From Plesiomonas shigelloides (GTDB lineage: Bacteria; Pseudomonadota; Gammaproteobacteria; Enterobacterales; CAMTGL01), in the NCBI RefSeq assembly GCF_900087055.1, contig NZ_LT575468.1, forward strand, positions 1,550,001 through 1,614,000: a stretch of DNA of 64,000 bases, in the 5' to 3' direction. A model generated the notes under the pieces. The model was not told the DNA's origin, did not search any database, and was given only the letters and a program-made list of their open reading frames with translations. Below, piece after piece: positions 1 through 64,000 of this stretch; within the stretch, counting starts at the first letter, position 1; every line of letters starts with the position of its first letter. The position numbers were made by a program, and so were the translations under genes.

Positions 1-332
1 TTTCCAATCCTGTGCATTGTAGGTGAGCGGTCGCGTTGAAGAGTCTGCGGTGTAGGCGAATGTAATCCTGTTTTCTTTCCAGTCAGCTGGTTCGGCTGCA
101 ACTGAGAGTTTTGGCATAGCAAACTTTGATACAACTGCAAAATCGTATTCTTTCCTCTTGTTTGCATGGTGTTTAGCTGCACGAAATCAGAGTTCTTTTG
201 CACAACAGGTGGCGAATGGTCGAGTCACGTGGAAGTGTGTGAATAGAATAGGGCCAGTACAATGCTCGCCAAGATCTATTGTCCTGTTTAGTTGGTCGGC
301 AAATCTAGTGTTTTTAGCTACCTTGGGGTTTC
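1..332. repeat. 75-bp-unit repetitive cassette, left end cut by window
   Basis: This is the partial first copy of the 13-member repetitive cassette family. It shows the recurring word TTCTTTCC (for example near 78 and 150) and the tail CCTTGGGGTTTCAGCTAAC that runs into the first attC. The plus strand has only short frames. The minus strand encodes degenerate KEYD-type repeats. Confidence 0.75.
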
Positions 333-454
333 AGCTAACAAAAAACTCAACAGGGACATTTTGAAATGGGCATTCGCTGCGCGAATTTTACGCCCATTTC
401 AAACCACTGCGCATGCAAGCATGCTACGTTATGCCCCTTAGTTAGAAGTTATCA
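333..454 (+). repeat. attC-A site 1
   Basis: R'' AGCTAAC and R' GTTATCA bound the site. L'' AACTCAAC pairs with L' GTTAG. The inner arm is GCATGC-AA-GCATGC. It closes the repetitive cassette at 1-332. Confidence 0.9.
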
Positions 455-7137: not shown

Positions 7138-7653
7138 TTAATGACAAGTGTTACCGTCAGGAGATGACCATGAAGTTCCATCTAACATTTTATTAAATCG
7201 GATATATTTTAGCAGTCTTTCCTTAGTGTTAAATGTGATTGATTCTATTTCTGATACAACTTGGGCTGGTTCAATACTCTCTAGTGAGTTATTTTGTTTG
7301 TTAATAAAAACCATGTAGATGCAATTGATTGCGGCAGAGTTGCTTTCAACAATTTTTCTTGCTTTATTTATATCATTATCCTGGGCGAAAAAAATGGAGT
7401 TTAGTGATTTGGCTAATTGTTCGGCTGCTTTACTTTGTTCTCCATATGGGTATTTTTCTTTTATATATTGTTCGATATCATCTCGGATATTATTATGGTT
7501 GCTATCTGTGCCAATTAAAGAGTTACCTCGCTCTAAAGAGGGTATTAACCTTGATGCTTCTAATTTGTTAATTATGTTTTCTTCTGATGATGCCTTATAA
7601 ATCAATGCGATAAGTATAAAACCTATAGCTAAGAAAGAGTGCGTTCTGTTCAT
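7138..7653 (-). CDS. EF-hand-like exported/anchored protein (divergent paralogue)
   Basis: A paralogue of the proteins at 43641 and 57020. The start is set at ATG 7653 (MNRTHSF) to match those copies and because GGGAT lies upstream. It has an N-terminal hydrophobic segment (SFLAIGFILIALIY), a D-S-N-H-N-N-I-R-D-D loop (about residues 47-56) resembling a calcium-binding EF-hand or dockerin loop, a helical middle, and C-terminal WSSPDGNTC with one of two cysteines. It is likely secreted or membrane-anchored; function unknown. It sits next to the broken copy at 6225, suggesting tandem duplication. Confidence 0.75.
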   Translation of the reverse strand: MNRTHSFLAIGFILIALIYKASSEENIINKLEASRLIPSLERGNSLIGTDSNHNNIRDDIEQYIKEKYPYGEQSKAAEQLAKSLNSIFFAQDNDINKARKIVESNSAAINCIYMVFINKQNNSLESIEPAQVVSEIESITFNTKERLLKYIRFNKMLDGTSWSSPDGNTCH

Positions 7654-7688
7654 AAATATCCCATGCGCCAAAGCTGTATTACTTATAG

Positions 7689-19439: not shown

Positions 19440-19556
19440 CAAAAAGTTAAGCAGGGACATTTTGAAATGGGCATTCGCTACGCGAATTTTATACCCATTT
19501 CAAACCGCTGCGCATGCAAACATGCTCCGCTATGCCCCGGTAACTAAATGTTATCT
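19434..19556 (+). repeat. attC-A site 18
   Basis: R'' GCATAAC overlaps the stop; R' GTTATCT; L'' AGTTAAGC against L' GGTAACT; inner arm GCATGC-AA-ACATGC with one mismatch. Confidence 0.92.
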
Positions 19557-20123
19557 GAAAGGCGAATTTAATAGGCTTTCGTGGTTTAAATTTCAGGCCG
19601 TAGCCAAATTAGTTTCGCGGTACAATTGTATTCTTTCTTCGATTTAGCTTGAGGGGCGAATGGGGGAATTGCCTTGGCTACATTTGCCTAGCGCGAATAT
19701 CGCATTCTTTCCTGTAGCGTGATCAGCGGAGTCCGGCCAAGTTGTCTATGCACATTCAGTGTTCACAGAACTTCCGCATTCTTTCCATTCTTGAGCATTG
19801 TAGGCGTATGGGCACGTTGCAGTTGCGGCGGCGTAGGTGAGTGCAATCCCGTTTTCTTTCCAGTCAGTTGGTTCTGCTGCAACCGGTAGTTTTGGTATAG
19901 CATGACTTGATGCAACTGAAAAATTGTATTCTTTCCTGTTGCATGCATGGCTTTTAGCCGCACAAAATCAGTGCGTTAACGCACAATTGAAGCTTAACGG
20001 TCGAGCCACGTAGAAATTCATCGGTAGAATTGGGTAAGTACAGTGCTCGCCGAGCAAAATCGCTTTTACTTAAGGTTGTTGTGTTGGTCGGCAAAACTCT
20101 GCTTTTAGCAACCTTGGGGTTTC
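19557..20123. repeat. 75-bp-unit repetitive cassette, copy 2
   Basis: The unit word TATTCTTTC recurs several times between TCTGAAAGGCGAATTTAATAG and CCTTGGGGTTTCAG. No intact ORF is seen on the plus strand, and the minus strand is fragmented by frameshifts. It is adjacent to copy 3. Confidence 0.8.
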
Positions 20124-20246
20124 AGATAACAAAAAATTCAAGCAGGGACATTTTGAAATGGGCATTCGCTACGCGAATTCTATGCCCATTTCAAATCGCT
20201 GCGCACGCAAGCGTGCTACGCTATGCTCGGTAACTAAGTGTTATCT
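20124..20246 (+). repeat. attC-A site 19, hybrid
   Basis: R'' AGATAAC, R' GTTATCT. L'' AATTCAAG does not match L' GGTAACT, so the two halves come from different site classes. Confidence 0.88.
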
Positions 20247-20740
20247 GAAAGGCGAATTTAATAGGCTTTCGTGGTTTAAATTTCAGGCCGTAGCCAAGCT
20301 GATTTTCGCGGCGCAATTGTATTCTTTCTTCGGTTTAGCTTAAGAGTCGAATGGTCTAGTTGTCTTGGCTACTGTGCTATTTACGTAAATATCGTATTCA
20401 TTCCATTCTTGAATATAGTTGGCGAATGAGTGCGTTGTAGTTTCAGCGGTATAGGCGAATGTAATCCGGCTTTCTTTCCCGTCAGTTGGTTCTGCTGTTG
20501 CGGGGAGGTCGGGCATAGCATTGTTTGCGGAAACTGGAAAATTGTATTCTTTCCTGCTGTTAACATGGTGTGTGGTTGCACAAAATCAGTGTTCTTTTGC
20601 ACAATCTAAGCCGAATGGGCGAGTCACGTGATCAATCATCAGTAGAATCGGGTAAGTTTAGGCTCGCCGAGGAAAACTGCTTTTACTTAAGGCTGTTACG
20701 TTGGTCGGCAAAACTCTGCTTTTAGCAACCTTGGGGTTTC
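20247..20740. repeat. 75-bp-unit repetitive cassette, copy 3
   Basis: Same architecture as copy 2. The minus strand reads a partial KEYD repeat, then breaks. Confidence 0.8.
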
Positions 20741-20863
20741 AGATAACAAGAAATTCAAGCAGGGACATTTTGAAATGGGCATTCGCTGCGCGAATTTTAT
20801 GCCCATTTCAAATCACTGCGCACGCAGGCGTGCTCCGTTATGCCCCTTAATTAAATGTTAAAC
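20741..20863 (+). repeat. attC-A site 20
   Basis: R'' AGATAAC, R' GTTAAAC; L'' AATTCAAG against L' CTTAATT. Confidence 0.93.
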
Positions 20864-24452: not shown

Positions 24453-25310
24453 TGTGACTTCATCGCCAGTAATTCTCTGCAAGGATATAAAAGCTTCATC
24501 AACATAGGATTTCCCAGTCTTTTTCTCGAACGCCTCTAAAAGATAGTCCTCGAACCACAGCCAATAGCCTGTACTATTTTCTCTATCATCATATTGCCCT
24601 CGAATACACTCTGAGTAACGTGAGGTGCTTTTCAGAACTTCTTTATCAACAAGAAAGTCATTGACCTGATTATTTTCCTCAAGTAACTCAAGTAATTTCT
24701 CTGCATGATAGTTATATTCTAGGAACGATTTTACCTTTGACTCTTTTTCGGCTGACCATTGCTCTTTAATGAAGTCACTGATCAGGGGATTAATTTGGGT
24801 CAAGTAATCTGTAACCCTGACATGTACTAGTCTTTGAATGTATCCATTTTTTTCTAGCGCTGAGTTATTTGACTCAGACATATCTAGCGTTTCATTTTTC
24901 AGGGTTAATTTTCTTAAAGTGGATTTCTGTTCGAAATGTAGATGCTCAAACGAACTTTGAATCTTTGTTAATAGCAACTTTTCATTTTGTTCTTTCTCAA
25001 TTCTTTCACGCTTGGCTTCTTCTAATTCCATCTCTTGTTTAAGCGCCGCTTCTTTTTTTGACTTATGCTTTTTCCATAAGAACTCAGCAGCCCAGGATAT
25101 TGCTTGTCCTACAAGTGAGCCACACCCTACGCCAAGAAGGAGCAGGACAATTGATAATTGTTCTTTTGATATTTGAGTCTCTGAGATAACTGGCTCAAGG
25201 TATTTCCAGGAGATCAACAAAGTCACTGCAACTGTTATATACTTAACACATGCCTTTGGTGAAGTAAGGGCTGCCAGTAGCTTTATAATCGTACCCGCAG
25301 TTTCACTCAT
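24447..25310 (-). CDS. SieB-like membrane protein (candidate superinfection exclusion)
   Basis: 287 residues. Two N-terminal membrane segments (about 20-36 and 48-71) are followed by a basic, coiled-coil-prone stretch (WKKHKSKKEAALKQEMELEEAKRERIEKEQNEK) and a soluble C-terminal domain ending YWLWFEDYLLEAFEKKTGKSYVDEAFISLQRI. The order of two helices then a helical cytoplasmic part resembles phage P22 SieB-type exclusion proteins, which kill cells infected by other phages. The match is by architecture only and is tentative. A strong AGGAGG precedes the ATG. It is an inverted insert behind the scaffold promoter at 25359. Confidence 0.6.
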   Translation of the reverse strand: MSETAGTIIKLLAALTSPKACVKYITVAVTLLISWKYLEPVISETQISKEQLSIVLLLLGVGCGSLVGQAISWAAEFLWKKHKSKKEAALKQEMELEEAKRERIEKEQNEKLLLTKIQSSFEHLHFEQKSTLRKLTLKNETLDMSESNNSALEKNGYIQRLVHVRVTDYLTQINPLISDFIKEQWSAEKESKVKSFLEYNYHAEKLLELLEENNQVNDFLVDKEVLKSTSRYSECIRGQYDDRENSTGYWLWFEDYLLEAFEKKTGKSYVDEAFISLQRITGDEVTA

Positions 25311-25358
25311 TTGTACCCTCCTGAGAGCCTAACAGCGTATTATGTGGAGACTTTCCGT

Positions 25359-25387
25359 ATAGTAACGCGGCATGTACTCTGAGTCAC
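25359..25387 (-). promoter_or_regulatory. scaffold promoter for SieB-like gene
   Basis: -35 GTGACT (25382-25387), 17 bp, -10 TACTAT (25359-25364). The insertion junction GCCTAAC-AGCG lies about 25 bp further on. Confidence 0.6.
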
Positions 25388-25495
25388 TAAATGTAACGTT
25401 CTGTAGTGTTCTGCGTAGTGATTTTAACTGCGAAAGTAGAGTTAGCTCATATTTTGGGTACGAAAAAAAATATTGCTGTTCGTGCATCGGTTCCG

Positions 25496-25618
25496 TGATA
25501 ACAAGCAGCTCAAGCAGGGACATTTTGAAATGGGCATTCGCTACGCGAATTTTATGCCCATTTCAAACCGCTGCGCACGCAAGCGTGCTACGCTATGCCC
25601 CTTAGCTAAATGTTATGA
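25496..25618 (+). repeat. attC-A site 23
   Basis: R'' TGATAAC, R' GTTATGA; L'' AGCTCAAG against L' CTTAGCT. Confidence 0.93.
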
Positions 25619-32742: not shown

Positions 32743-33402
32743 TTAATTGTCTTGGCTACAATTTCTCATTTTGCCAGAAAGCAGTATTCTCATGCCAACT
32801 GTATCTGGGGTTGCATTCACTAACGATTTTGCTACAGAAATGGCGGTAATGGGTTTGTAGTTTTTAGGAATAAAGCTCATCAATGCATTAGCGAATAGCT
32901 GACTGTAATGCTCATTACTTCTTTTCGGTTGGCCCAATGCATCACGATCACCTAATAGCATAGAGGGGCGAGCAATGGTCACACCTTTAAAGCCTAAATT
33001 TTCAACTGCCATCTCTAATTCGCCTTTGACTCTGCTATAAAACACTGCAGAGTTTGGGTTAGCGCCCATTGCACTAACAATTCCTATGCGGTCTACGCCA
33101 ACTTTTCGGGCCGCTATTGCTACGGCGAGGTTTGCATCAAAATCCACTGCACGAAATGCATCTTTGCTACCTGCATCTTTGATAGTTGTTCCAAGTGCGA
33201 GATACACTTCGTTTGCGCTAGGTAATGCGGGTAAGTCCTTAAAATTCACAACCAGCTGAACAAGCTTCGGATGATCCAGTTTCAGCTTGCGTCTCGTTAA
33301 ACTGTATACTGTACGAACAGTGTCGTCGTTCAAAAGCTGTTTGAGGATCTCGCTGCCAACCAGTCCGGTACTTCCTGTAGTAATCACATCGCGATTTGGT
33401 AG
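32743..33402 (-). CDS. NAD(P)-binding SDR-like oxidoreductase, copy 1
   Basis: 219 residues from ATG 33402 with AAGGAA 7 nt upstream. It is an atypical SDR: ITTGSTGLVGSEILKQLL (cofactor loop TGxxGxVG, residues 8-25), VYSLTRRKL, EVYLALGTTIKDAGSKDAFRAVDFD, IGIVSAMGANPNS and FYSRVKGELE (YxxxK). It resembles the HTATIP2/TIP30-like NAD(P)H-binding family; substrate unknown. Almost the same cassette recurs at 56036-56842. The C terminus differs because one copy reads GCCAAGACAATTAA where the other stops sooner. Confidence 0.88.
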   Translation of the reverse strand, partial: LPNRDVITTGSTGLVGSEILKQLLNDDTVRTVYSLTRRKLKLDHPKLVQLVVNFKDLPALPSANEVYLALGTTIKDAGSKDAFRAVDFDANLAVAIAARKVGVDRIGIVSAMGANPNSAVFYSRVKGELEMAVENLGFKGVTIARPSMLLGDRDALGQPKRSNEHYSQLFANALMSFIPKNYKPITAISVAKSLVNATPDTVGMRILLSGKMRNCSQDN

Positions 33403-33504
33403 CATCTGAGTGTTCCTTGATATTCTGTATGTTCTGGTTGTAACCAAGGTTAGCGCAGTCTAAGTGTTTTGGTAATCCATTTTGTTTGGTCTACATTGGC
33501 TCCG

Positions 33505-36551: not shown

Positions 36552-37149
36552 CCAGCTTTCTCCACGTTAGCTCTCTTCGAGAAGTTTTCAGCCAAGCTTC
36601 ATATACGAGATAGTGACTTTTATCTTTATGAATCCACAGGCGAGGTATCTGTGCCATATCATTTCCCTTCAAGCAATATGGGTACAAACCTAGATACTCT
36701 TGTCCTATATACTCATTATCATACGAGTATTTTTTTATAGGTAGAATTGCTACTTTCTCTTTTATGCCATCAAAGTAGCCACACTCCCAAGGCATCCACT
36801 TTGAAGCTTCTGCATTTTCAGTTGTGACATAGAATAACGACTTAGAAGCATCCATTCTTTCTCTGAGTAATTCAGCTGTACTTTCATTGACTTTACTTCG
36901 ATCAAGTTGAGCATCATCAACCCAGTCGACATAGACAGAGTAACCCATATCTTCAAGTGTAGCTTTAACACCAAGTATCAACTCAGCGTCTTTCGAGCTG
37001 TGAGACAAGAAAATGTCGTAAGTTTTATATTTATTAAAAACAGAGGCGGATTCGGAAAGAATTTTACTCTTTGACTTATATATATTAGTTGCCCGTTGGC
37101 TCTCTTGTTGGGCACGAGCTCTAATACTACTTTCATTAAATAATGCCAT
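36544..37149 (-). CDS. TIR domain protein
   Basis: 201 residues. A helical N-terminal extension (about residues 1-40) is followed by a TIR domain starting YKTYDIFLSHSSKDAELILGVKATLEDMGYSVYVDW (residues 41-76) and continuing with ASKSLFYVTTENAEASKWMPWECGYFDG. The conserved WECGYFDG box lies at about residues 120-127 and contains the Glu at the usual NADase position. Bacterial TIR domains hydrolyse or cyclise NAD+ in antiphage defence. It is the first gene of a two-gene operon with a membrane protein. GGAGATGAT lies before the ATG. Confidence 0.87.
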   Translation of the reverse strand: MALFNESSIRARAQQESQRATNIYKSKSKILSESASVFNKYKTYDIFLSHSSKDAELILGVKATLEDMGYSVYVDWVDDAQLDRSKVNESTAELLRERMDASKSLFYVTTENAEASKWMPWECGYFDGIKEKVAILPIKKYSYDNEYIGQEYLGLYPYCLKGNDMAQIPRLWIHKDKSHYLVYEAWLKTSRRELTWRKLDD

Positions 37150-37216
37150 ATCATCTCCATAATTAGCACAAAACTACATGTTCGCATAACAGCGTTATTA
37201 TGTGGAAACTTTCCGT

Positions 37217-37245
37217 ATAGTAACGTGACTTGTATCATGTGTCAC
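37217..37245 (-). promoter_or_regulatory. scaffold promoter for TIR operon
   Basis: -35 GTGACA (37240-37245), 17 bp, -10 TACTAT (37217-37222), about 70 bp before the TIR start. Confidence 0.6.
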
Positions 37246-37354
37246 CTAATGTAACGAGTTGTACCGTGTTGCATATTAGGTTTTACTGTAGAAGTAGAGT
37301 TAGCTCATTCGTTGGCTATGTCTGCACACACTGCTTTCCAAACATCGGGTTCCG

Positions 37355-37476
37355 TGATAACAAGCAGCTCAACAGGGACATTTTGAAATGGGCATTCACT
37401 ACGTGAATTTTATGCCCATTTCAAACCGCTGCGCACGCAGGCGTGCTACGCTATGCCCCTTAGCTAAATGTTATCA
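37355..37476 (+). repeat. attC-A site 34
   Basis: R'' TGATAAC, R' GTTATCA; L'' AGCTCAAC against L' CTTAGCT; arm ATTCAC-TAC-GTGAAT. Confidence 0.93.
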
Positions 37477-42289: not shown

Positions 42290-43279
42290 AGATGTATTCC
42301 AACAACCTTTGCTTGAGCTATCAAAGAAAATAACCTCAAGCTGACCTAGTTCTTTTCGGATAAGCTCATACACATAATTACAATAACCTTGGTTAGCACC
42401 AAAAACAGAAACAGCAATTTTTTTGATTTGAGATTCTCTGATTCGACGTAAAATATGCACATCGTGTTCACCGAAACCCCAGCCATAAATTACAAGTGTT
42501 TCCCCTAAATCAGCAAAAACTTCTCGATATACGACACTCAAGTAATGGCTATTTGTAATGGCTACTACTTTTTGATTTGATGTCCCCTCACTAACAAATA
42601 AGGGAACGCAGCTTTCTGATTCCCAGTTTTTAAGGATTGAATCTAAGAGGTCATCATGTACACCGACATCAATTTTATACTCATTGTCTACAACATTTCG
42701 TGCGAGCAATAGATTACCATGAGGATAAAACATTAAAGTATTTGAACTTTCTCTATATAACTCACGGTATTTTTTCCAATCATCAGCAAATACCCCATGA
42801 TACATTGCATCTTTGAATCGGTGACTTGTTCCTTGTCTATTGGCGTACATCGCTACCCAATATAGTGTTAGATCATAATTCAAACTAAGAACGGTATCGA
42901 AATTACGTAAAAATGAGGCTATGTTGTCAAATTGTGACTCAACATCACTATATGCTGGATGAATATCCCTAACTGCATTAATAAGGCAATCTCGAACATG
43001 CTCATAAGCTCTTTGAGTCTTGTTATCCATTATATTGAGAGCTTTATTCACTCGACTAGCTTGCCATACAAGCCTTAAAACTAGTTCAAAATCGTCGGTT
43101 TTAAAATATTCAAACAGTGCTCTAACGTGATGAGTAAGTAAGCCATGTTTAATTGAATGCTCTCTTAATGACTTGTACATAAAGCTCTTATCGATAGCGA
43201 TAGAAGCACCATTTCCAAGTAACAATGAATCTTGAAATTCACTTGAAATATTGTGCCAATGATATATTTTGTATGTCAC
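42284..43279 (-). CDS. DUF4917 / SIR2-like protein
   Basis: 331 residues starting at GTG 43279, preceded by GGAGG. Motifs of the DUF4917 (SIR2-like fold) family are LLLGNGASIAIDKSFMYKSL (about residues 19-38), VLSLNYDLTLYWVAMY (about 133-148), LMFYPHGNLLLARNV (about 180-194) and LVIYGWGFGEHDVHILRRI (about 262-280). Related SIR2-like proteins consume NAD+ in antiphage defence; activity here is inferred from the family. The stop lies at the edge of an attC-B-like arm. Confidence 0.82.
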   Translation of the reverse strand: MTYKIYHWHNISSEFQDSLLLGNGASIAIDKSFMYKSLREHSIKHGLLTHHVRALFEYFKTDDFELVLRLVWQASRVNKALNIMDNKTQRAYEHVRDCLINAVRDIHPAYSDVESQFDNIASFLRNFDTVLSLNYDLTLYWVAMYANRQGTSHRFKDAMYHGVFADDWKKYRELYRESSNTLMFYPHGNLLLARNVVDNEYKIDVGVHDDLLDSILKNWESESCVPLFVSEGTSNQKVVAITNSHYLSVVYREVFADLGETLVIYGWGFGEHDVHILRRIRESQIKKIAVSVFGANQGYCNYVYELIRKELGQLEVIFFDSSSKGCWNTSA

Positions 43280-43326
43280 TAAACCTCCAAATCTGCTTAA
43301 TAGCGTATTATACGGAAAGTTTCCGT

Positions 43327-43355
43327 ATAGTAACTCGGCATGTACTCCGAGTCAC
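43327..43355 (-). promoter_or_regulatory. scaffold promoter for DUF4917 gene
   Basis: -35 GTGACT (43350-43355), 17 bp, -10 TACTAT (43327-43332). Confidence 0.6.
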
Positions 43356-43463
43356 CAGATGTAACGTTCTCTAGTGCGCTGAGTAGTGATTTTAACTGCA
43401 GAAGTAGAGTTAGCTCATGTTTTGAGTACGCAAAACACATTGCAGAGTGAGCATCGGGCTCCG

Positions 43464-43586
43464 TGATAACAAAAAGTTGAAGTAGGGACATTTTGAAATG
43501 GGCATTCGCTACGCGAATTTTATGCCCATTTCAAATCACTTCGCACGCAAGCGTGCTGCGTTATGCCCATTAACTAAATGTTATCA
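43464..43586 (+). repeat. attC-A site 38
   Basis: R'' TGATAAC, R' GTTATCA; L'' AGTTGAAG against L' ATTAACT, where GCCCAT replaces GCCCCT. Confidence 0.92.
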
Positions 43587-43640: not shown

Positions 43641-44156
43641 TTAATAGCAAGTATTACCGTCTGAAGATGACCATGAAGTTCCATCTAAAAGTTTATTAAA
43701 TTGAATATATTTTAGCAGTCTATTCTTAGTGTTAAATGTGATTGATTCTATTTCTGATACAACTTGGGCTGGTTCAATACTTTCTAGTGAGTTATTTGGT
43801 TTATTGATAAAAACCGTGTAAATGCAATTGATTGCGTCAGAGTTTCTTTTTACAATTCTTCTTGCTTTGTTTATATCATCATTCTCGACTAAAAAAATGG
43901 AGTTTAATGATTTTGCTAATTGTTCGGCTGCTTTGCTTTGTTCTCCATGGGGGTATCTTTCTTTTATATATTGGTCAATATCATCTCGAATGCTATTATG
44001 GTTTCTATCTGACCCAATTAAAGAGTCACCTCGCTCTAAAGAGGGTGTTAATCCCGAAGCTTCTAACTTGTTAATTATATCATTTCCTGATAATGTCCTA
44101 TAGCTCAATGCAATAAGTATAAATCCTATAGCCAAGAAAGAGTGTGTTCCTTTCAT
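43641..44156 (-). CDS. EF-hand-like exported/anchored protein, intact copy
   Basis: 171 residues. An N-terminal hydrophobic segment (SFLAIGFILIALSYRTLSG) acts as signal or anchor. The loop SDRNHNSIRDDIDQYI (about residues 48-63) has D, N, N and D at calcium-loop spacing. The C-terminal half is helical and ends WSSSDGNTCY, with one of two cysteines. The cassette is almost identical to the broken one at 6171-6960 and close to that at 56966-57756. GGGATAATT precedes the ATG. Function unknown; an envelope location is likely. Confidence 0.78.
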   Translation of the reverse strand: MKGTHSFLAIGFILIALSYRTLSGNDIINKLEASGLTPSLERGDSLIGSDRNHNSIRDDIDQYIKERYPHGEQSKAAEQLAKSLNSIFLVENDDINKARRIVKRNSDAINCIYTVFINKPNNSLESIEPAQVVSEIESITFNTKNRLLKYIQFNKLLDGTSWSSSDGNTCY

Positions 44157-45357: not shown

Positions 45358-45479
45358 TGATAACAAAAAATTCAACAGGGACATTTTGAAATGGGCATTC
45401 GCTACGCGAATTTTACACCCATTTCAAACCACTGCGCACGCAAGCGTGCTCCGTTATGCCCCTTAATTAAATGTTATCT
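45358..45479 (+). repeat. attC-A site 40
   Basis: R'' TGATAAC, R' GTTATCT; L'' AATTCAAC against L' CTTAATT. Confidence 0.92.
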
Positions 45480-45974
45480 GAAAGTCGAATTTAATAGGCT
45501 TTCGTGGTTTAAACTTCAGGCCATAGTCACGTTACTTTTCGCGGCGCAATTGTATTCTCTCTTCGATTTAGCGTTGTTGTCGAATGGGGGAGTTGTCTAG
45601 GTAACAGCATTGTTTACGTAAATATCGTATTCTTTCCATTCTTGAACATAGTTGGCGAATGAGCGCGTTGTAGTTTCACCGGTATAGGCGAATGTAATCC
45701 GGCTTTCTTTCCCGTGAGTTGGTACTGCTGTTGCGGGGTGATCAGGCATAACATGGTTTGCTGAAACTGGAAAAATCGTATTCTTTCCTGCTGTTAGCAT
45801 GGTGTGTGGTTGCACAAAATCAGTGTTCTTTTGCACAATCTAAGTCGAATGGTCGAGTCACGTGATAAATCATCGGTAGAATAGGGTAAATTCAGGCTCG
45901 CCGAGGAAAGCTGCTTTTACTTAAGGCTGTTACGTTGGTCGGCAAAACCCTGCTTTTAGCAACCTTGGGGTTTC
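45480..45974. repeat. 75-bp-unit repetitive cassette, copy 4
   Basis: Four-unit form. The minus strand reads KESRITFAYTGETTTRSFANYVQEWKEYDIYVN before a stop. An extra base (GGAAAAATCG) breaks the frame. Confidence 0.8.
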
Positions 45975-46097
45975 AGATAACAAGAAATTCAAGCAGGGAC
46001 ATTTTGAAATGAGCATTCGCTGCGCGAATTTTATGCTCATTTCAAACCACTTCGCACGCAAGCGTGCTTCGTTATGCCCCTTAATTAAATGTTAGCT
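45975..46097 (+). repeat. attC-A site 41
   Basis: R'' AGATAAC, R' GTTAGCT; L'' AATTCAAG against L' CTTAATT; outer arm GAGC/GCTC. Confidence 0.93.
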
Positions 46098-46669
46098 GAA
46101 AGGCGAATTTAATAAGCTTTTGTGGGTTAAATCTCAGCACTTAGCATAATGAATTTTCACGGCTCAATTGTATTTGTTCTTCGATTTAGCCGTTGCGTCG
46201 AATGAGTGAGTTGCCTTGGCTGCTTAATCGTTTACGTAAATATCGTATTCTTTCCCGTAGCGTGATCAGCGTAGACCGGCCAAGTTGCCGATGTATCTTC
46301 AGTGTTCTCGGTAAGTCATTACTCTTTCCAATCCTGTACATTGTAGGTGAGCGGTCGCGTTGAAGTGTCAGAAGTGTAGGCAGCAAATGCAATTCTGTTT
46401 TCTTTCCAGTCAGCTGGTTCGGCTGTAACTGACAGTTTTGACATAGCAAGCTTTGCTACAACAGAAAAATCGTATTCTTTCCTATTGTTTGCATGGTGTT
46501 TGGCTGCACAAATCAGCGTTCTTTTGAACAATTAAAGGCGAATGGTCGAGTCACGTGCATCATTGCGAATAGAATAGGGCCAGTACAATGCTCGCCAAGC
46601 TCTATTGTCCTTACTTAAGGTTGTTTAGTGGGTCGGTAAGTCTAGTGTTTTTAGCTACCTTGGGGTTTC
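46098..46669. repeat. 75-bp-unit repetitive cassette, copy 5 (long form)
   Basis: The unit word starts near 46173, 46248, 46322, 46400 and 46475, giving spacings of 75, 74, 78 and 75. The minus strand has the longest uninterrupted repeat reading (RKEYDFSVVAKLAMSKLSVT continuing to WKENRIAFAAYTS), opening near 46531. It is then lost at the 74-bp unit. Confidence 0.82.
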
Positions 46670-46791
46670 AGCTAACAAAAAACTCAACAGGGACATTTTG
46701 AAATGGGCATTTGCTGCGCAAATTTTACGCCCATTTCAAACCACTGCGCATGCAAGCATGCTACGTTATGCCCCTTAGTTAGAAGTTATCA
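46670..46791 (+). repeat. attC-A site 42
   Basis: R'' AGCTAAC, R' GTTATCA; L'' AACTCAAC against L' GTTAG; arm ATTTGC-TGC-GCAAAT. Confidence 0.92.
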
Positions 46792-48235: not shown

Positions 48236-48358
48236 TGATAACAAAAAATTCAAGCAGGGACATTTTGAAATGGGCATTCGCTGCGCGAATTTTATGCCCA
48301 TTTCAAACCACTGCGCACGCAAGCGTGCTCCGTTATGCCCCTTAATTAAATGTTAGCT
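48236..48358 (+). repeat. attC-A site 43
   Basis: R'' TGATAAC, R' GTTAGCT; L'' AATTCAAG against L' CTTAATT. Confidence 0.93.
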
Positions 48359-48854
48359 GAAAGGCGAATTTAATAAGCTTTTGTGGGTTAAATCTGAGCA
48401 CTTGGCATAGTGAATTTTCACGGCTCAATTGTATTTGTTCTTCGATTTAGCCGCTGCGTCGAATGAGTGAGTTGCCTTGGCTACTTAATCGTTTACGTAA
48501 ATGTCGTATTCTTTCCAATCGTGTGCGTTGTTGGTGAGCGGTCGCGTTGAAGAGTCTGCGGTTTAGCCGAATGTAATCATGTTTTCTTTCCAGTCAGCTG
48601 GTTCGGCTGCAACTGACAGTTTTGGCATAGTAAGCTTTGGTACAGCTGCAAAAACGTATTCTTTCCTCTTGTTTGCATGGTGTTTAGCTGCACGAAATCA
48701 GCGTTCTTTTGCACAATTGAAGGCGAATGGTCGAGTCACGTTCATCATTGCGAATAGAATAGGGCCAGTACAATGCTCGCCAAGCTCTATTGTCCTTACT
48801 TAAGGTTGTTTAGTGGGTCGGCAAGTCTAGTGTTTTTAGCTACCTTGGGGTTTC
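48359..48854. repeat. 75-bp-unit repetitive cassette, copy 6
   Basis: It begins CTGAAAGGCGAATTTAATAAG and carries unit words near 48508, 48584 and 48659. It ends CCTTGGGGTTTCAGC. Confidence 0.8.
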
Positions 48855-48976
48855 AGCTAACAAAAAACTCAACAGGGACATTTTGAAATGGGCATTCGCT
48901 GCGCGAATTTTACGCCCATTTCAAACCACTGCGCATGCAAGCATGCTACGTTATGCCCCTTAGTTAGAAGTTAGCT
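48855..48976 (+). repeat. attC-A site 44
   Basis: R'' AGCTAAC, R' GTTAGCT; L'' AACTCAAC against L' GTTAG; inner arm GCATGC-AA-GCATGC. Confidence 0.92.
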
Positions 48977-49545
48977 GAAAGGCGAATTTAATAGGCTTTT
49001 GTGGGTTAAACTTGAGCACTACGCATAGCTTATTGTCACGGCTAAATTGTATTTGTTCTTCGATTTAGCTGCTGTGTCTAATGAGTTAGTTGCCTTGGCT
49101 ACTTAATCGTTTACGTAAATATCGTATTCTTTCCAGTAGCCTATTCGGTGTAATCTGGCCAAGTTGCCGATGCATCTTCAGTGTCACGGTAAGTCAGTAT
49201 TCTTTCTAATCCTGTACATTGTTGGTGAGCGGTCGCGTTGAAGTGTCTGCGGTGTAGGCGAATGTAATCTTGTTTTCTTTCCAGTCAGTCGGTTCGGCTG
49301 CAACTGACAGTTTTGGCATAGTAAGCTTTGCTACAACGGCAAAAACGTATTCTTTCCTCTTGTTTGCATGGTCTTTAGCTGCACGAAATCAGAGTTCTTT
49401 TGCACAACTGGTGGCGAATGGTCGAGTCACGTGGAAGTGTGTGAATAGAATAGGGCAAATACAATGCTCGCCAAGCTATATTGTCCTTACTTAAGGTTGT
49501 TTGGCGGGTCGGTAAGTGTAGTGTTTTTAGCTGCCTTGGGGTTTC
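48977..49545. repeat. 75-bp-unit repetitive cassette, copy 7 (long form)
   Basis: Very similar to copy 5 and adjacent to copy 6. The plus strand has only short frames that also occur in other copies. Confidence 0.8.
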
Positions 49546-49667
49546 AGCTAACAAAAAACTCAACAGGGACATTTTGAAATGAGCATTCGCTGCGCGAATT
49601 TTACGCTCATTTCAAACCACTGCGCATGCAAGCATGCTCCGTTATGCCCCTTAGTTAAAAGTTATCA
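49546..49667 (+). repeat. attC-A site 45
   Basis: R'' AGCTAAC, R' GTTATCA; L'' AACTCAAC against L' GTTAA; outer arm GAGC/GCTC. Confidence 0.92.
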
Positions 49668-55292: not shown

Positions 55293-55409
55293 CAAAAAGT
55301 TAAGCAGGGACATTTTGAAATGGGCATTCGCTACGCGAATTTTATGCCCATTTCAAACCGCTGCGCATGCAAGCATGCTACGCTATGCCCCGGTAACTAA
55401 ATGTTATCT
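55287..55409 (+). repeat. attC-A site 49
   Basis: R'' GCATAAC overlaps the cupin stop; R' GTTATCT; L'' AGTTAAGC against L' GGTAACT. Confidence 0.93.
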
Positions 55410-55912
55410 GAAAGGCGAATTTAATAGGCTTTCGTGGTTTAAATTTTAGGCCGTAGCCAAGCTAATTTTCGCGGCGCAATTGTATTCTTTCTTCGGTTTA
55501 GCTTCAGCGTCGAATGGTCGAGTTGTCTTGGCTACAGTGCTATTTACGTAAATATTGTATTCTTTCCATTCTTTCCATTCTTGAACATAGTTGGCGAATG
55601 TGCGCGTTGCAGTTTCAGCGGTATAGGCGAATGTAATCCAGCTTTCTTTCCCGTCAGTTGGTTCTGCTGCAACGAGTAGTTTTGACATAGCATAGCTTTC
55701 TGCAACTGAGAAATTGTATTCTTTCCTGTTGGACGCTTGGTTTTTAGCCGCACGAAATCAGTGCTTTTTCACACAATTGAAGCTGAACGGTCGAGTCACG
55801 TGATAAATCATCGCTAGAATAAGGTAAGTTCAGGCTCGCCGAGGAAAACTGCCTTTACTTAAGGCTGTTACGTTGGTCTGCAAAACTCTGCTTTTAGCAG
55901 CCTTGGGGTTTC
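55410..55912. repeat. 75-bp-unit repetitive cassette, copy 8
   Basis: The minus strand reads an unbroken AAEPTDGKESWITFAYTAET onward to KPKKEYNCAAK, with a small internal expansion (TTCTTTCCA duplicated near 55560, adding Trp-Lys-Glu). Confidence 0.8.
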
Positions 55913-56035
55913 AGATAACAAGAAATTCAAGCAGGGACATTTTGAAATGAGCATTCGCTACGCGAATTTTATGCTCATTTCAAACCACTGCGCACGCAAG
56001 CGTGCTCCGTTATGCCCCTTAATTAAATGTTATCA
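55913..56035 (+). repeat. attC-A site 50
   Basis: R'' AGATAAC, R' GTTATCA; L'' AATTCAAG against L' CTTAATT; outer arm GAGC/GCTC. Confidence 0.93.
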
Positions 56036-56089: not shown

Positions 56090-56740
56090 TTAGCTACAAT
56101 TTCTCATTTCGCCAGAAAGCAGTATTTTCACGCCAACTGTATTAGGAGTCGCATTCACTAGCGATTTTGCTACAGAAATGGCGGTAATGGGTTTGTAGTT
56201 TTTCGGAATAAAACTCATCAATGCATTAGCGAATAGCTGACTGTAGTGCTCATTACTTCTTTTCGGTTGGCCCAATGCATCACGATCACCTAATAGCATA
56301 GAAGGGCGAGCAATCGTCACACCTCTAAAGCCTAAATTCTCAACTGTCAGCTCTAATTCGCCTTTTACTCTGCTATAAAACACTACAGAATTTGGGTTAG
56401 CGCCCATTGCACTAACAATTCCTATGCGGTCTACGCCAACTTTTCGGGCAGCTATTGCTACGGCGAGGTTTGCATCAAAATCCACTGCACGAAATGCATC
56501 TTTGCTTCCTGCATCTTTGATAGTTGTTCCAAGTGCAAGATAGACTTCATTTGCGCTAGGTAATGCGGGTAAGTCCTCAAAATTCACAACTAGTTGAACA
56601 AGCTTCGGATGATCCAGTTTCAGCTTGCGTCTCGTTAAACTGTATACTGTACGAACAGTGTCGTCGTTCAAAAGCTGTTTGAAGATCTCGCTGCCAACCA
56701 GTCCGGTACTTCCTGTAGTAATCACATCGCGATTTGGTAG
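56090..56740 (-). CDS. NAD(P)-binding SDR-like oxidoreductase, copy 2
   Basis: 216 residues from ATG 56740 with AAGGAA upstream. It is a close paralogue of the 32743 gene with the same TGSTGLVGSE cofactor loop and FYSRVKGELE active site. It is shorter by three residues because the codon after NCS is TAA (plus-strand CTTAGCT instead of CTTGGCT). Substitutions such as Glu-Leu-Thr for Glu-Met-Ala in the last helix of the active-site region are mild. Both copies keep the same flanks, so the cassette was duplicated as a unit. Confidence 0.87.
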   Translation of the reverse strand, partial: LPNRDVITTGSTGLVGSEIFKQLLNDDTVRTVYSLTRRKLKLDHPKLVQLVVNFEDLPALPSANEVYLALGTTIKDAGSKDAFRAVDFDANLAVAIAARKVGVDRIGIVSAMGANPNSVVFYSRVKGELELTVENLGFRGVTIARPSMLLGDRDALGQPKRSNEHYSQLFANALMSFIPKNYKPITAISVAKSLVNATPNTVGVKILLSGEMRNCS

Positions 56741-56842
56741 CATCTGAGGGTTCCTTGGTATTCTGTATGTTCTGGTTGTAACCAAGGTTAGCGCAGTCTA
56801 AGTGTTTTGGTAATCCATTTTGTTTGGTCTACATTGGCTCCG

Positions 56843-57019: not shown

Positions 57020-57535
57020 TTAATAGCAAGTATTACCGTCAGAAGATGACCATGAAGTTCCATCTAAAAGTTTATTAAATTTAATATATTTTAGCAGTCT
57101 ATTCTTAGTGTTAAATGTGATTAATTCTATTTCTGATACAACTTGGGCTGGTTCAATACTTTCTAGAGAGTTATTTGGTTCATTGATAAAAACCGTGTAA
57201 ATGCAATTGATTGCGTCAGAGTTGCTTTTTACAATTCTTCTTGCTTTGTTTATATCATCATTCTCGACTAATAAAATGGAGTTTAATGATTTTGCTAATT
57301 GTTCTGCTGCTTTGCTTTGTTCTCTATGGGGGTATTTTTCTTTTATATATTGGTCAATATCATCTCGAATGCTATTATGGTTTCTATCTGACCCAATTAA
57401 AGAGTCACCTCGCTCTAAAGAGGGTGTTAATCCCGAAACTTCTAACTTGTTAATTATATCATTTCCTGATAATGTCCTATAACTCAATGCAATAAGTATA
57501 AATCCTATAGCTAAGAAAGAGCGTGTTCCTTTCAT
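57020..57535 (-). CDS. EF-hand-like exported/anchored protein, second intact copy
   Basis: 171 residues, about 95% identical by eye to the 43641 product. The signal/anchor segment SFLAIGFILIALSYRTLSG, the SDRNHNSIRDDIDQYI loop and the C-terminal SSSDGNTCY are conserved. Differences include KLEVSG for KLEASG and ILLVEND for IFLVEND. It shows that the family is maintained as full-length proteins, in contrast to the broken copy at 6225. Confidence 0.78.
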   Translation of the reverse strand: MKGTRSFLAIGFILIALSYRTLSGNDIINKLEVSGLTPSLERGDSLIGSDRNHNSIRDDIDQYIKEKYPHREQSKAAEQLAKSLNSILLVENDDINKARRIVKSNSDAINCIYTVFINEPNNSLESIEPAQVVSEIELITFNTKNRLLKYIKFNKLLDGTSWSSSDGNTCY

Positions 57536-57756: not shown

Positions 57757-57879
57757 TGATAACAAAGAGCTCAAGCAGGGACATTTTGAAATGGGCATTC
57801 ACTGCGTGAATTTTATGCCCATTTCAAACCGCTGTGCACGCAGGCGTGCTACGCTATGCCCCTTAGCTAAATGTTAGCT
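57757..57879 (+). repeat. attC-A site 52
   Basis: R'' TGATAAC, R' GTTAGCT; L'' AGCTCAAG against L' CTTAGCT; arm ATTCAC-TGC-GTGAAT. Confidence 0.93.
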
Positions 57880-58449
57880 GAAAGGCGAATTTAATAGGCT
57901 TTTGTGGGTAAAATTTGAGCACTACTCATAGTTTATTGTCACGGCGCAATTGTATTTTTTCTTCGATTTACCTTTTGCGTCGCATGGGTGAGTTGGCTTG
58001 GCTGCTTCATCGTTTAAGTAAATATCGCATTCATTCCAGTAGCGTATTCGGCGGAGTCCGGCAAAGTTGCCGATGCATCTTCAGCATTCACTGTAAGTCA
58101 GTATTCTTTCCATTCCTGAACATTGTTTGCGAATGGCCGCGTTGAAGTTTCTACGGTGTAGGCGAATGTAATCCTGTATTCTTTCCCGTCAGCAGGTTCT
58201 ACTGCAACAGGTAGTTTTGGAATAGTAAGGTTTGCTACAACTGCGCAATCGTATTCTTTCCTCTGGTTTGCATGGTCTTTAGCTGCACGAAATCAGAGTT
58301 CTTTTGCACAACAGGTGGCGAATGGTCGAGTCACATGGAAGTGTGTTAATAGAATAGGGCCAGTACAATGCACGCCAAGGTCTATTGTCCTTACTTAAGG
58401 TTGTTTAGTGGGGCGGCAAGTCTAGTGTTTTTAGCTACCTTGGGGTTTC
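57880..58449. repeat. 75-bp-unit repetitive cassette, copy 9 (long form)
   Basis: Long form similar to copies 5 and 7. It ends CCTTGGGGTTTCAGCTAAC. Confidence 0.8.
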
Positions 58450-58571
58450 AGCTAACAAAAAACTCAACAGGAACATTTTGAAATGGGCATTCGCTGCGCG
58501 AATTTTACGCCCATTTCAAACCACTGCGCATGCAAGCATGCTACGTTATGCCCCTTAGTTAGAAGTTATCT
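58450..58571 (+). repeat. attC-A site 53
   Basis: R'' AGCTAAC, R' GTTATCT; L'' AACTCAAC against L' GTTAG; AGGAACATT replaces AGGGACATT. Confidence 0.92.
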
Positions 58572-59065
58572 GAAAGGCGAATTTAATAGGCTTTCGTGGT
58601 TTAAATTTCAGTCCGTAGCCAAGCTAGTTTTCGTGGCTCACTTGTATTCTTTCTTCGGTTTAGCTTCAGAGCCGAATGGTAGAGTTGTCTTGGCTACAGA
58701 ACTATTTACGTAAATATCGTATTCTTTCCATTCTTGAACATAGTTGGAGAATGAGCGCGTTGCAGTTTCAGCGGTATAGGCGAATGTAATCCGGCTTTCT
58801 TTCCCGTCAGTTGGTTCTGCTGTTGCGGGGAGGTCGGGCATAGCATGGTTTGCGGAAACTGGAAAATCGTATTCTTTCCTGCTGTTAGCATTGTGTGTGG
58901 TTGCACAAAATCAGTGTTCTTTTGCACAATCTAAGTCGAATGGTCGAGTCACGTGATCAATCATCGGTAGAATAGGGTAAGTTCAGGCTCGCCGAGGAAA
59001 ACTGCTTTTACTTAAGGCTGTTACGTTGGTCGGAAAAACTCAGCTTTTAGCAACCTTGGGGTTTC
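58572..59065. repeat. 75-bp-unit repetitive cassette, copy 10 (type copy)
   Basis: The unit word begins at 58647, 58722, 58797 and 58872, exactly 75 bp apart. The minus strand reads three consecutive 25-residue units starting RKEYDFPVS, GKESRITFAYT and WKEYDIYVNSS, then KKEYK. A TGA lies just upstream of the first unit. Confidence 0.85.
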
Positions 59066-59188
59066 AGATAACAACAAATTCAAGCAGGGACATTTTGAAA
59101 TGAGCATTCGCTGCGCGAATTATACGCTCATTTCAAACCACTGCGCACGCAATCGTGCTCCGTTATGCCCCTTAATTAAATGTTATCA
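59066..59188 (+). repeat. attC-A site 54
   Basis: R'' AGATAAC, R' GTTATCA; L'' AATTCAAG against L' CTTAATT; outer arm GAGC/GCTC; inner arm GCACGC-AA-TCGTGC. Confidence 0.92.
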
Positions 59189-59276
59189 GGAAGGGCATTT
59201 AATTAATATTTTTGGCGTATGAGAGAATCGTACTATTACCGTAGTAGGGTACCACGGCGAATGAAAAATATTATAT

Positions 59277-59403
59277 TTTAACGCCCGTCTAAGGGGCTGG
59301 CAACGAACTATCACTAAACTCAAACACAACAACTGCAACCACCGCGCCTCAATGGGACTAGAAGCGCGGCGCGTTGACAGTCACATTGAGGCGTTTGTTA
59401 TAT
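59277..59403 (-). repeat. attC-B, V. cholerae VCR-like
   Basis: 127 bp between TTTAACG and GTTATAT. Minus-strand features AACAAACGCCTCAA, GACTGTCAACGCG, GTTGTTGTGTTTGAGTTT and CAGCCCCTTAGACGGGCG closely follow the published V. cholerae repeat. It is the clearest foreign-type site in the window. Confidence 0.85.
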
Positions 59404-59410
59404 GTGTGAC

Positions 59411-62350: not shown

Positions 62351-62473
62351 GGTTAACAAAGAGCTAAAGTAGGGACATTTTGAAATGGGCATTCGCTGCG
62401 CGAATTTTATGCCCATTTCAAACCGCTGCGCACGCAAGCGTGCTGCGCTATGCCCCTTAGCTAAATGTTATCT
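62351..62473 (+). repeat. attC-A site 57
   Basis: R'' GGTTAAC, R' GTTATCT; L'' AGCTAAAG against L' CTTAGCT; GTAGGGAC replaces GCAGGGAC. Confidence 0.92.
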
Positions 62474-62892
62474 GAAAGGCGAATTTAATAGGCTTTCGTG
62501 GTTTAAATTTCAGGTCATAGTCATTTTACTTTTAGCGGCGTAATTGTATTTTTTCTTCGATTTAGTGCTTTTGTCGAATGGTGAAGTTGTCTTGGCTACA
62601 TTTCCCTAGAGTGAATATCGTATTCTTTCCAGTCAGTTGGTTCTGCTGCTACGGGTAGTTTTGGCATAGCATGGCTTGCTGTAACTGAGAAATTGTATTC
62701 TTTCCTGTTGGATACATGGTTTTTAGCCGCACGAAATCAGTGCTTTTTCGCACAATTGAAACCGAATGGTCGAGTTACGTGGAAGTTCATCTGTAGAATA
62801 GGGGCATTACAGTGCACGCCGAGCAAAATCGTTTTTACTTAAGGCGGTTACGTTGGTCGGCAGAAGCCAGCTTTTAGCAACCTTGGGGTTTC
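62474..62892. repeat. 75-bp-unit repetitive cassette, copy 11 (contracted)
   Basis: About 75 bp shorter than copies 3, 10 and 12. TATTCTTTCC near 62621 is joined directly to AGTCAGTTGG, which belongs to a later unit, as expected from recombination between units. Confidence 0.8.
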
Positions 62893-63015
62893 AGATAACA
62901 AGAAATTCAAGCAGGGACATTTTGAAATGAGCATTCGCTGCGCGAAATTTACGCTCATTTCAAACCACTGCGCACGCAAGCGTGCTCTGTTATGCCCCTT
63001 AATTAAATGTTATCT
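62893..63015 (+). repeat. attC-A site 58
   Basis: R'' AGATAAC, R' GTTATCT; L'' AATTCAAG against L' CTTAATT; outer arm GAGC/GCTC. Confidence 0.92.
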
Positions 63016-63509
63016 GAAAGGCGAATTTAATAGGCTTTCGTGGTTTAAATTTCAGTCCGTAGACAAGCTAGTTTTCGTGGCGCAATTGTATTCTTTCTTC
63101 GGTTTAGCTTCAGAGTCGAATGGTCGAGTTGTCTTGGCCACTGTGCTATTTACGTAAATATTGTATTCTTTCCATTCTTGAACACAGTTGGCGAATGAGC
63201 GTGTTGCAGTTTCAGCGGTATAGGCGAATGTAATCCAGCTTTCTTTCCCGTCAGTTGGTACTGCTGTTGCAGGGTGATCAGGCATAGCATGGTTTGCGGA
63301 AACTGGAAAATCGTATTCTTTCTTGCTGTTAGCATGGTATGTGGTTGCACAAAATCAGTGTTCTTTTGCACAATCTAAGTCGAATGGTCGAGTCACGTGA
63401 TAAATCATCGGTAGAATAGGGTAAGTTTAGGCTCGCCGAGGAAAGCTGCTTTTACTTAAGGCTGTTACGTTGGTCGGCAAAACCCTGCTTTTAGCAACCT
63501 TGGGGTTTC
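63016..63509. repeat. 75-bp-unit repetitive cassette, copy 12
   Basis: Four-unit form very close to copy 10. The minus strand reads PTDGKESWITFAYTAETATR onward to KPKKEYNCATK without interruption. Confidence 0.82.
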
Positions 63510-63632
63510 AGATAACAAGAAATTCAAGCAGGGACATTTTGAAATGAGCATTCGCTGCGCGAATTTTACGCTCATTTCAAACCACTTCGCACACAAGCGT
63601 GCTTCGTTATGCCCCTTAATTAAATGTTAGCT
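63510..63632 (+). repeat. attC-A site 59
   Basis: R'' AGATAAC, R' GTTAGCT; L'' AATTCAAG against L' CTTAATT; outer arm GAGC/GCTC. Confidence 0.93.
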
Positions 63633-64000
63633 GAAAGGCGAATTTAATAAGCTTTTGTGTGTTAAATTTGAGCACTACGCATAGCTTATTGTCACGGCTC
63701 AATTGTATTTTTTCTTCGATTTACCTTTTGCGTCGAATGGTTGAGTTGGCTTGGCTGCTTCATCGTTTAAGTAAATATCGCATTCATTCCAGTAGCGTAT
63801 TCGGTGGAGTCCGGTAAAGTTGCCGATGCATCTTCAGCGTTCACTGTAAGTCAGTATTCTTTCCATTCCTGAACATTGTTTGCGAATGGCCGCGTTGAAG
63901 AATCTGTGGTTTAGGAGAATGTAATCCTGTTTTCTTTCCAGTCAGCGGGTGCGGCTGCAACTAACAGTTTTGGCATAGCAAGCTTTGCAACAACTGCAAA
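63633..64000. repeat. 75-bp-unit repetitive cassette, copy 13, right end cut by window
   Basis: Long form starting CTGAAAGGCGAATTTAATAAGC. It is close to copy 9 and runs off the window. Confidence 0.78.

Follow-up and report, generated by a model that had tools for sequence, protein, structure and literature searches.

Integron cassettes are generally held to be free of pseudogenes, and this is taken as proof that they are frequently under selection (PMC11014356). The same study, which concerns gene-less cassettes from Vibrionaceae superintegrons, found promoter activity in most of the 29 Vibrio cassettes of this kind that it assayed; in-silico prediction of such promoters is said to fail, and one gene-less cassette, P3, resembles a degenerated gene with three stops (PMC11014356). 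Two further papers serve as background (PMC11023631, PMC11551772).

Here we describe a family of cassettes from the chromosome of Plesiomonas shigelloides, each containing a tandem array of 75-bp units. These cassettes probably carry a dead repeat-protein gene that was multiplied in place, with no working gene left among them. Because cassettes are thought to be without pseudogenes, a dead family occupying 17 places is mildly surprising, and a dead cassette present that many times in a single array would clearly break the no-pseudogene rule. We saw no description of this KE-repeat family in a literature search, and do not claim that it is unpublished.

The cassette family and its integron setting

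The window, by which we mean the whole stretch of 64,000 nucleotides analysed (bases 1,550,001-1,614,000 of a 3.4-Mb single contig), is part of a ~80-kb chromosomal integron. An integrase gene, intI, lies ~1.3 kb to the left of the window (1,547,778-1,548,725, minus strand), with an integron integrase score of 447 bits against a cut-off of 265, and is followed by dozens of attC sites, each ~115 bp long and spaced every ~0.35-3 kb, up to ~1,630,600.

When the host's own whole genome was searched, the family was found in 17 places, every one inside this array; sixteen were located by their end motifs, and the seventeenth is a truncated copy at 66840-67301. Thirteen of the 17 overlap the window, where their bodies cover 6,541 bases, attC not counted, and the other four lie within 16 kb to its right. 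A first-pass annotation of the window, made from its letters alone, had counted thirteen copies totalling about 6 kb, and both figures hold. The copy on which it focused, placed at 58572-59065, is real, with a body slightly wider than stated; this body, at 58565..59072, is the cassette studied in detail here and is one member of the multicopy family. The features to which we refer, within the window, are as follows.

58565..59072, minus strand: body of the cassette studied, from R' to R'', with complementary terminal 11 bp (GTTATCTGAAA / TTTCAGATAAC)
59069..59185, plus strand: its attC, from R'' TAAC to R' GTTA
58806..58880, minus strand: its unit U1 (RKEYDF...), 25 codons
58731..58805, minus strand: its unit U2 (GKESRI...), 25 codons
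58656..58730, minus strand: its unit U4 (WKEYDI...), 25 codons
58641..58910, minus strand: its stop-free run in KE, the presumed ancestral frame, 90 codons, with no start before U1; read as a pseudogene
58706..58891, minus strand: its ATG-started 61-aa ORF in frame KE+1; considered and disfavoured
1..339, minus strand: family copy whose body begins 234 bases before the window does
19550..20130, minus strand: family copy with U3
20240..20747, minus strand: family copy
45473..45981, minus strand: family copy with a frameshift in U1
46091..46676, minus strand: family copy with U3
48352..48861, minus strand: family copy without U3
48970..49552, minus strand: family copy with a 73-bp U3
55403..55919, minus strand: family copy in which 9 bp are tandemly duplicated
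57873..58456, minus strand: family copy with U3
62467..62899, minus strand: family copy without U2 and U3
63009..63516, minus strand: family copy with a 100-codon stop-free run
63626..64000, minus strand: family copy with U3, extending past the window end to 64209

The family sits between attC sites in an array beside an integron integrase, as gene cassettes do, with an attC directly to the right of every aligned copy (n=15); the exception is the truncated copy at 66840-67301, which ends in U4 and is joined to an attC fragment. That copy is omitted from the alignment of 16 copies, and copy c79514, which has a large deletion, was additionally excluded from the sets of 15 used for the Mantel test, codon scores, substitutions, codon positions and consensus folds. 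The dN/dS sets comprised 13 copies, and one family alignment covers 14 of the 17 places, one of them partially.

Other cassettes of the array share features of their own. A common leader stands at their right ends (for example 37138-37361, 25274-25502 and 43248-43470, minus strand), and a profile of it has 24 matches covering at least 160 of its 243 positions, among them all 19 cassettes, picked by eye, from which the model was built. These matches lie mostly upstream of differing minus-strand genes, and a -35/-10-like pair was spotted in the leader by eye. Beyond the host genome, only short partial matches to the leader were found, in 2 of 393 genomes of the order, and the KE-repeat family is without it (best E 1.8, profile search). 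Further cassette genes are duplicated within the array (7138-7671, 43641-44156 and 57020-57535; 32743-33447 and 56090-56785). Inside cassettes at ~59240-59410 and ~23578 are sites in reversed orientation that resemble the Vibrio VCR.

Repeat units and their spacing

The word TTCTTTC occurs at 58647, 58722, 58797 and 58872, as first annotated. Over both strands of the window it has 61 matches against 14.9 expected, a number reached in 0/100 shuffles, and on the plus strand 23 of 53 successive spacings are exactly 75, whereas 1,000 trials of random placement averaged 0.04 such spacings and never exceeded 1. The initial description of the units as exact is slightly overstated, since spacings of 74 (two), 76 (one) and 73 (one) are also present, owing to one-base indels. 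On the minus strand the units run in the order U1, U2, (U3), U4, U5, in steps of 75 bases with few exceptions, and a conserved KE opens each unit of 25 codons. U3 is present in 8 of the 17 places, with a length of 74 bp in 7/8 of these copies and 73 bp in 1/8; it precedes U4 in those eight and is missing from the cassette studied in detail. Copies differ from one another in which whole units they have, and two of them also show 9-bp tandem steps.

Beyond the shared motif, profiles of U1-U4 agree at 0.35-0.40 in register versus ~0.26 at other offsets. The in-register match is the highest in five of the six unit pairs, in two of them barely, and in the U2-U3 pair the off-register value is higher (0.403 vs 0.351). 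This in-register likeness points to an old tandem duplication of the 25-codon unit in one ancestor, from which the 75-bp spacing is apparently inherited. Because all copies have a single ancestor's spacing, the suggestion that 75 bp, as about 7 helical turns, reflects a DNA role is left without independent support.

A probable former coding frame

Codon usage was scored with a table trained on 32 of the longer ORFs in the window (42 were listed), and the scoring ignores stops. For gene pieces of 240 bases, taken from the same training ORFs, the correct frame scores 0.217 +/- 0.072, and the highest-scoring incorrect frame 0.094 +/- 0.049. The KE frame scores 0.16-0.31 in 13 of 15 copies; by way of control, 15 pieces of leader plus attC score 0.073 (maximum 0.145), and the 99.9th percentile of one copy's shuffles is 0.180. 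KE is the best of the six frames in 14/15 copies and beats nearly all shuffles (P <=0.007) in 13. The two exceptions lie at 45473, where a single base is inserted in U1, and at 48970, a copy in which KE no more than ties (0.08, P 0.2). Along the cassette, profiled from 5 + 7 copies, the signal begins at the repeats and is missing from most of the cassette leader. Within the subfamily that bears U3 it is partly weak, at 0.03-0.10 for the 75-base windows that begin at 275 and 300. It survives removal of the motif codons in 6/6 copies tested (of 15). As the copies share one ancestor, this codon evidence is effectively that of one sequence.

Stops tell a similar story. Counted over U1, U2 and U4 plus the beginning of U5, the KE frame contains 7 stops in 1,037 codons versus 59 +/- 21 in column shuffles, 0/400 of which were as low (13 copies). 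U0 and U3, outside this region, bear a stop at the equivalent unit position in many copies, so the depletion depends in part on the region chosen. The codon-usage test, which lay outside the first-pass proposals, points to a putative coding role in the ancestor, and the minus-strand 25-residue KE repeat described there is thereby borne out as a former coding frame, by codon usage and stop depletion together. Gene-like codon usage is combined with disabling changes, as in a pseudogene.

Present substitution pattern

A dN/dS and stop-density comparison had been proposed at the outset. In the KE frame, dN/dS is 0.74, within the range of shuffled columns (0.84 +/- 0.17; 13 copies), alongside the 7/1,037 stops given above. 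Among distinct single-change codons, 32/137 (0.234) are synonymous against 0.242 expected, and events per site reach 1.05 in the repeats (251 in 240 sites) versus 1.02 in the cassette leader (184 in 180). New stops arose at 4 codon sites, mildly fewer than the expectation of 9.2 stop-making events. In two families of duplicated genes from this array, dN/dS is 0.18-0.48 (4 comparisons). Substitutions since the copies split look near neutral, and no coding constraint is evident now, although codon positions are uneven: events over U1-U4 number 105, 59 and 81 by position (permutation P 0.014), a bias that is beyond what simple neutrality explains. The first-pass annotation had named a neutral pattern, with no periodic copies elsewhere, as what would speak against its reading, and as regards present coding this is what we found.

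Search for relatives

No relative of the family was found outside the array in searches by DNA, protein, profile and pattern. Searches of 394 genomes of the order (the host's own included) by protein and DNA, of 369 genomes of the class, partly overlapping the order set, by profile, of plasmids by DNA and protein, and of phages by protein returned none; several of the collections searched may omit the host genome or records of its nearest relatives, and the host's family is represented in the collection by two genomes. The order-wide DNA search gave a 41-base match in one other genome (E 1.9e-4), which we took as chance, a profile search of that locus giving nothing at E <=10. Peptide patterns matched 308 stretches in genome contigs and 37 in viral contigs, none of which was confirmed; the DNA pattern had no match in viral contigs. 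The 75-bp-spaced pattern was matched by 37 stretches from genome contigs and by 11 from viral ones, and a profile search showed none of these to be related. One further genome represents the genus and is 75% complete; it had no match to the KE-repeat family, though it does have an integron integrase above cut-off and a 27-base attC match.

At the protein level, Pfam, NCBIfam and PDB sequences gave no match to the repeat protein. In PHROGs, three families had a match, each to a single row of the six (best E 0.0083), and no known repeat-protein family could be assigned by profile match. A long intact homologue with tandem 25-residue repeats, which the initial annotation had suggested seeking, was not found in the collections searched. 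With no intact relative in these collections, all that is known of the ancestral gene comes from its remains. AlphaFold predicted no fold (mean pLDDT 44.4), which counts somewhat against a former repeat-protein gene.

Multiplication as whole cassettes

Distances between cassette bodies correlate with distances between their attC sites (Mantel r 0.76, P 0.0002; 15 copies). The copies fall into two subfamilies, with ends GTTATC/GATAAC vs GTTAGC/GCTAAC, whose paired end bases covary (T-A in 8/13 and G-C in 5/13 complete rows). Bodies differ by 0.144 and 0.114 within subfamilies and 0.255 between them, and attC sites by 0.075 and 0.027 within and 0.114 between. Because bodies and attC diverged together, whole cassettes have multiplied; the duplication of cassettes proposed at first pass agrees with this correlation, and body and attC appear, from their divergence, to have moved or multiplied as a unit.

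We infer the following order of events and copying mechanism. A repeat-protein gene, whole or in part, would first have become a cassette bounded by attC. Its coding ability would then have been lost, through a frameshift in U3, stops and the lack of a usual start codon; on our reading, the gene was dead by the time the cassette spread, or became so soon after spreading began. The integrase, or else recombination, would next have copied whole cassettes with their attC into further places of the array, and the copies may since have drifted almost neutrally, with 75-bp units lost or kept via recombination between repeats.

Alternative readings

Any present function would have to be at the level of DNA or RNA, for example that of a putative promoter cassette, which would be compatible with the dead-gene reading. 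One possible, if unlikely, form of this is that the cassette is at present a DNA-level promoter or antisense-promoter cassette whose dead gene body has been kept for that role, a proposal likewise compatible with a pseudogene origin. Promoter activity is common in the gene-less Vibrio cassettes (PMC11014356), and here seventeen places persist. Between subfamilies the cassette ends are conserved at 0.93 (first 20 columns), 0.97 (columns 560-579) and 0.88 (last 8), versus 0.41-0.88 away from those ends; such conserved ends may, however, instead serve recombination, and the cassette leader changes at the same rate as the repeats. Over 57860-59200 we found one promoter-like site, in attC, against a shuffle mean of 1.9, a scan that is weak evidence because these promoters are held to be unpredictable in silico. 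More doubtful is a fuller version, in which selection for a DNA-level job would have maintained copy number: the dead repeat gene would be a regulatory or promoter cassette distributed over the 17 places, and the number of units would provide a tunable spacer.

A structured non-coding RNA built of 75-nt modules is very improbable. One of four whole-cassette folds is unusually stable (plus strand, 58565-59072; z -2.58, 0/100 shuffles), but the other three have z of -1.32, -0.39 and +0.31. The 15-copy consensus fold is lower in energy than 30/30 column shuffles on both strands, by a crude control that scatters gaps and breaks neighbour effects, for a fold that includes the complementary cassette ends. 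Covariation, however, is unfavourable, both in the set of 14 sequences, one of them partial (plus strand, +1.34; 4/66 pairs changed on both sides), and in 15 copies (+1.08 on the minus strand, 3/74 pairs; +0.16 on the plus strand, 4/77 pairs). Neither covarying pairs nor, within the window and at gathering scores, a match to an Rfam family was found, and we rejected RNA structure on the unfavourable covariation on both strands and the lack of an Rfam match.

It is equally hard to credit that a few open copies still encode a working minus-strand repeat protein. Stop-free KE-frame runs span 25 to 106 codons across the 15 copies examined, wider than the 60-80 codons first reported, whereas the frameshifts and the want of clear starts noted at the same time stand: ATG, GTG and TTG are absent before the first unit in 14/15 copies, and the copy at 46091 has TTG. 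Four copies are open over 103 (55403), 100 (63009), 106 (72280) and 90 codons (58565), but none of these has a KE-frame start before U1, the substitution pattern is neutral, and the libraries searched hold no relative. Present coding in the KE frame was rejected on dN/dS and on the synonymous share, which is at expectation, and the minus-strand repeat gene of the first-pass annotation does not survive as a working gene today, given the neutral pattern, the broken state of most copies and the lack of an intact relative.

Least credible of all is a new 61-residue protein read from KE+1, with an ATG ~182 bases into the cassette: the ATG is present in 13/16 copies, the length of 61 residues recurs in 5 copies spanning both subfamilies, dN/dS is 0.45-0.47 (P 0.003, as one frame among six) and stops number 10/778 vs 43 (P 0.017), but the codon score is negative in 13/15 copies, unlike that of the array's genes, 8 of the 13 ATG copies are frameshifted or stopped early, and dN/dS is also low in U4 (0.47, P 0.07), which the 61-aa ORF does not translate, so that the low value is not tied to this ORF; present coding in KE+1 was rejected on these three grounds.

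Comparison with known systems

If the cassettes do carry a dead repeat-protein gene, the family would offer a natural way to learn if cassettes are able to multiply in the absence of a coding benefit, and codon usage would be a means of exposing the lost frame of a cassette when a homologue is lacking. Like tandem short-repeat proteins, the family has a regular period, here 25 codons, each unit opening with a conserved KE; it differs in having no Pfam, NCBIfam or PDB match.

Like Vibrio superintegrons of the VCR type, the locus has intI beside a long array with near-identical attC sites. Unlike in VCR-type arrays, the longest ORF (>=80 aa) is here antisense to the attC direction in 47/62 array segments, often with the common leader, by a crude segmentation in which some segments are two merged cassettes and three are copies of the KE-repeat family.

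Compared with the gene-less cassettes of Vibrionaceae superintegrons (Blanco et al. 2024, PMC11014356), the KE-repeat cassettes are alike in being ~500-600 bp long, bounded by attC, part of a chromosomal array and without an evident gene. Against the definition of gene-less given there (no ORF >=70 aa; PMC11014356), 11/14 copies do have an ORF, of 73-87 aa, and 3/14 are without any. These ORFs are inconsistent in frame and strand and look like chance ones; because the 70-aa cut-off is exceeded, we do not file the family as gene-less. It is further unlike the cassettes of Blanco et al. in standing in 17 places of one array, in being a tandem-repeat relic, and in having its frame antisense to attC.
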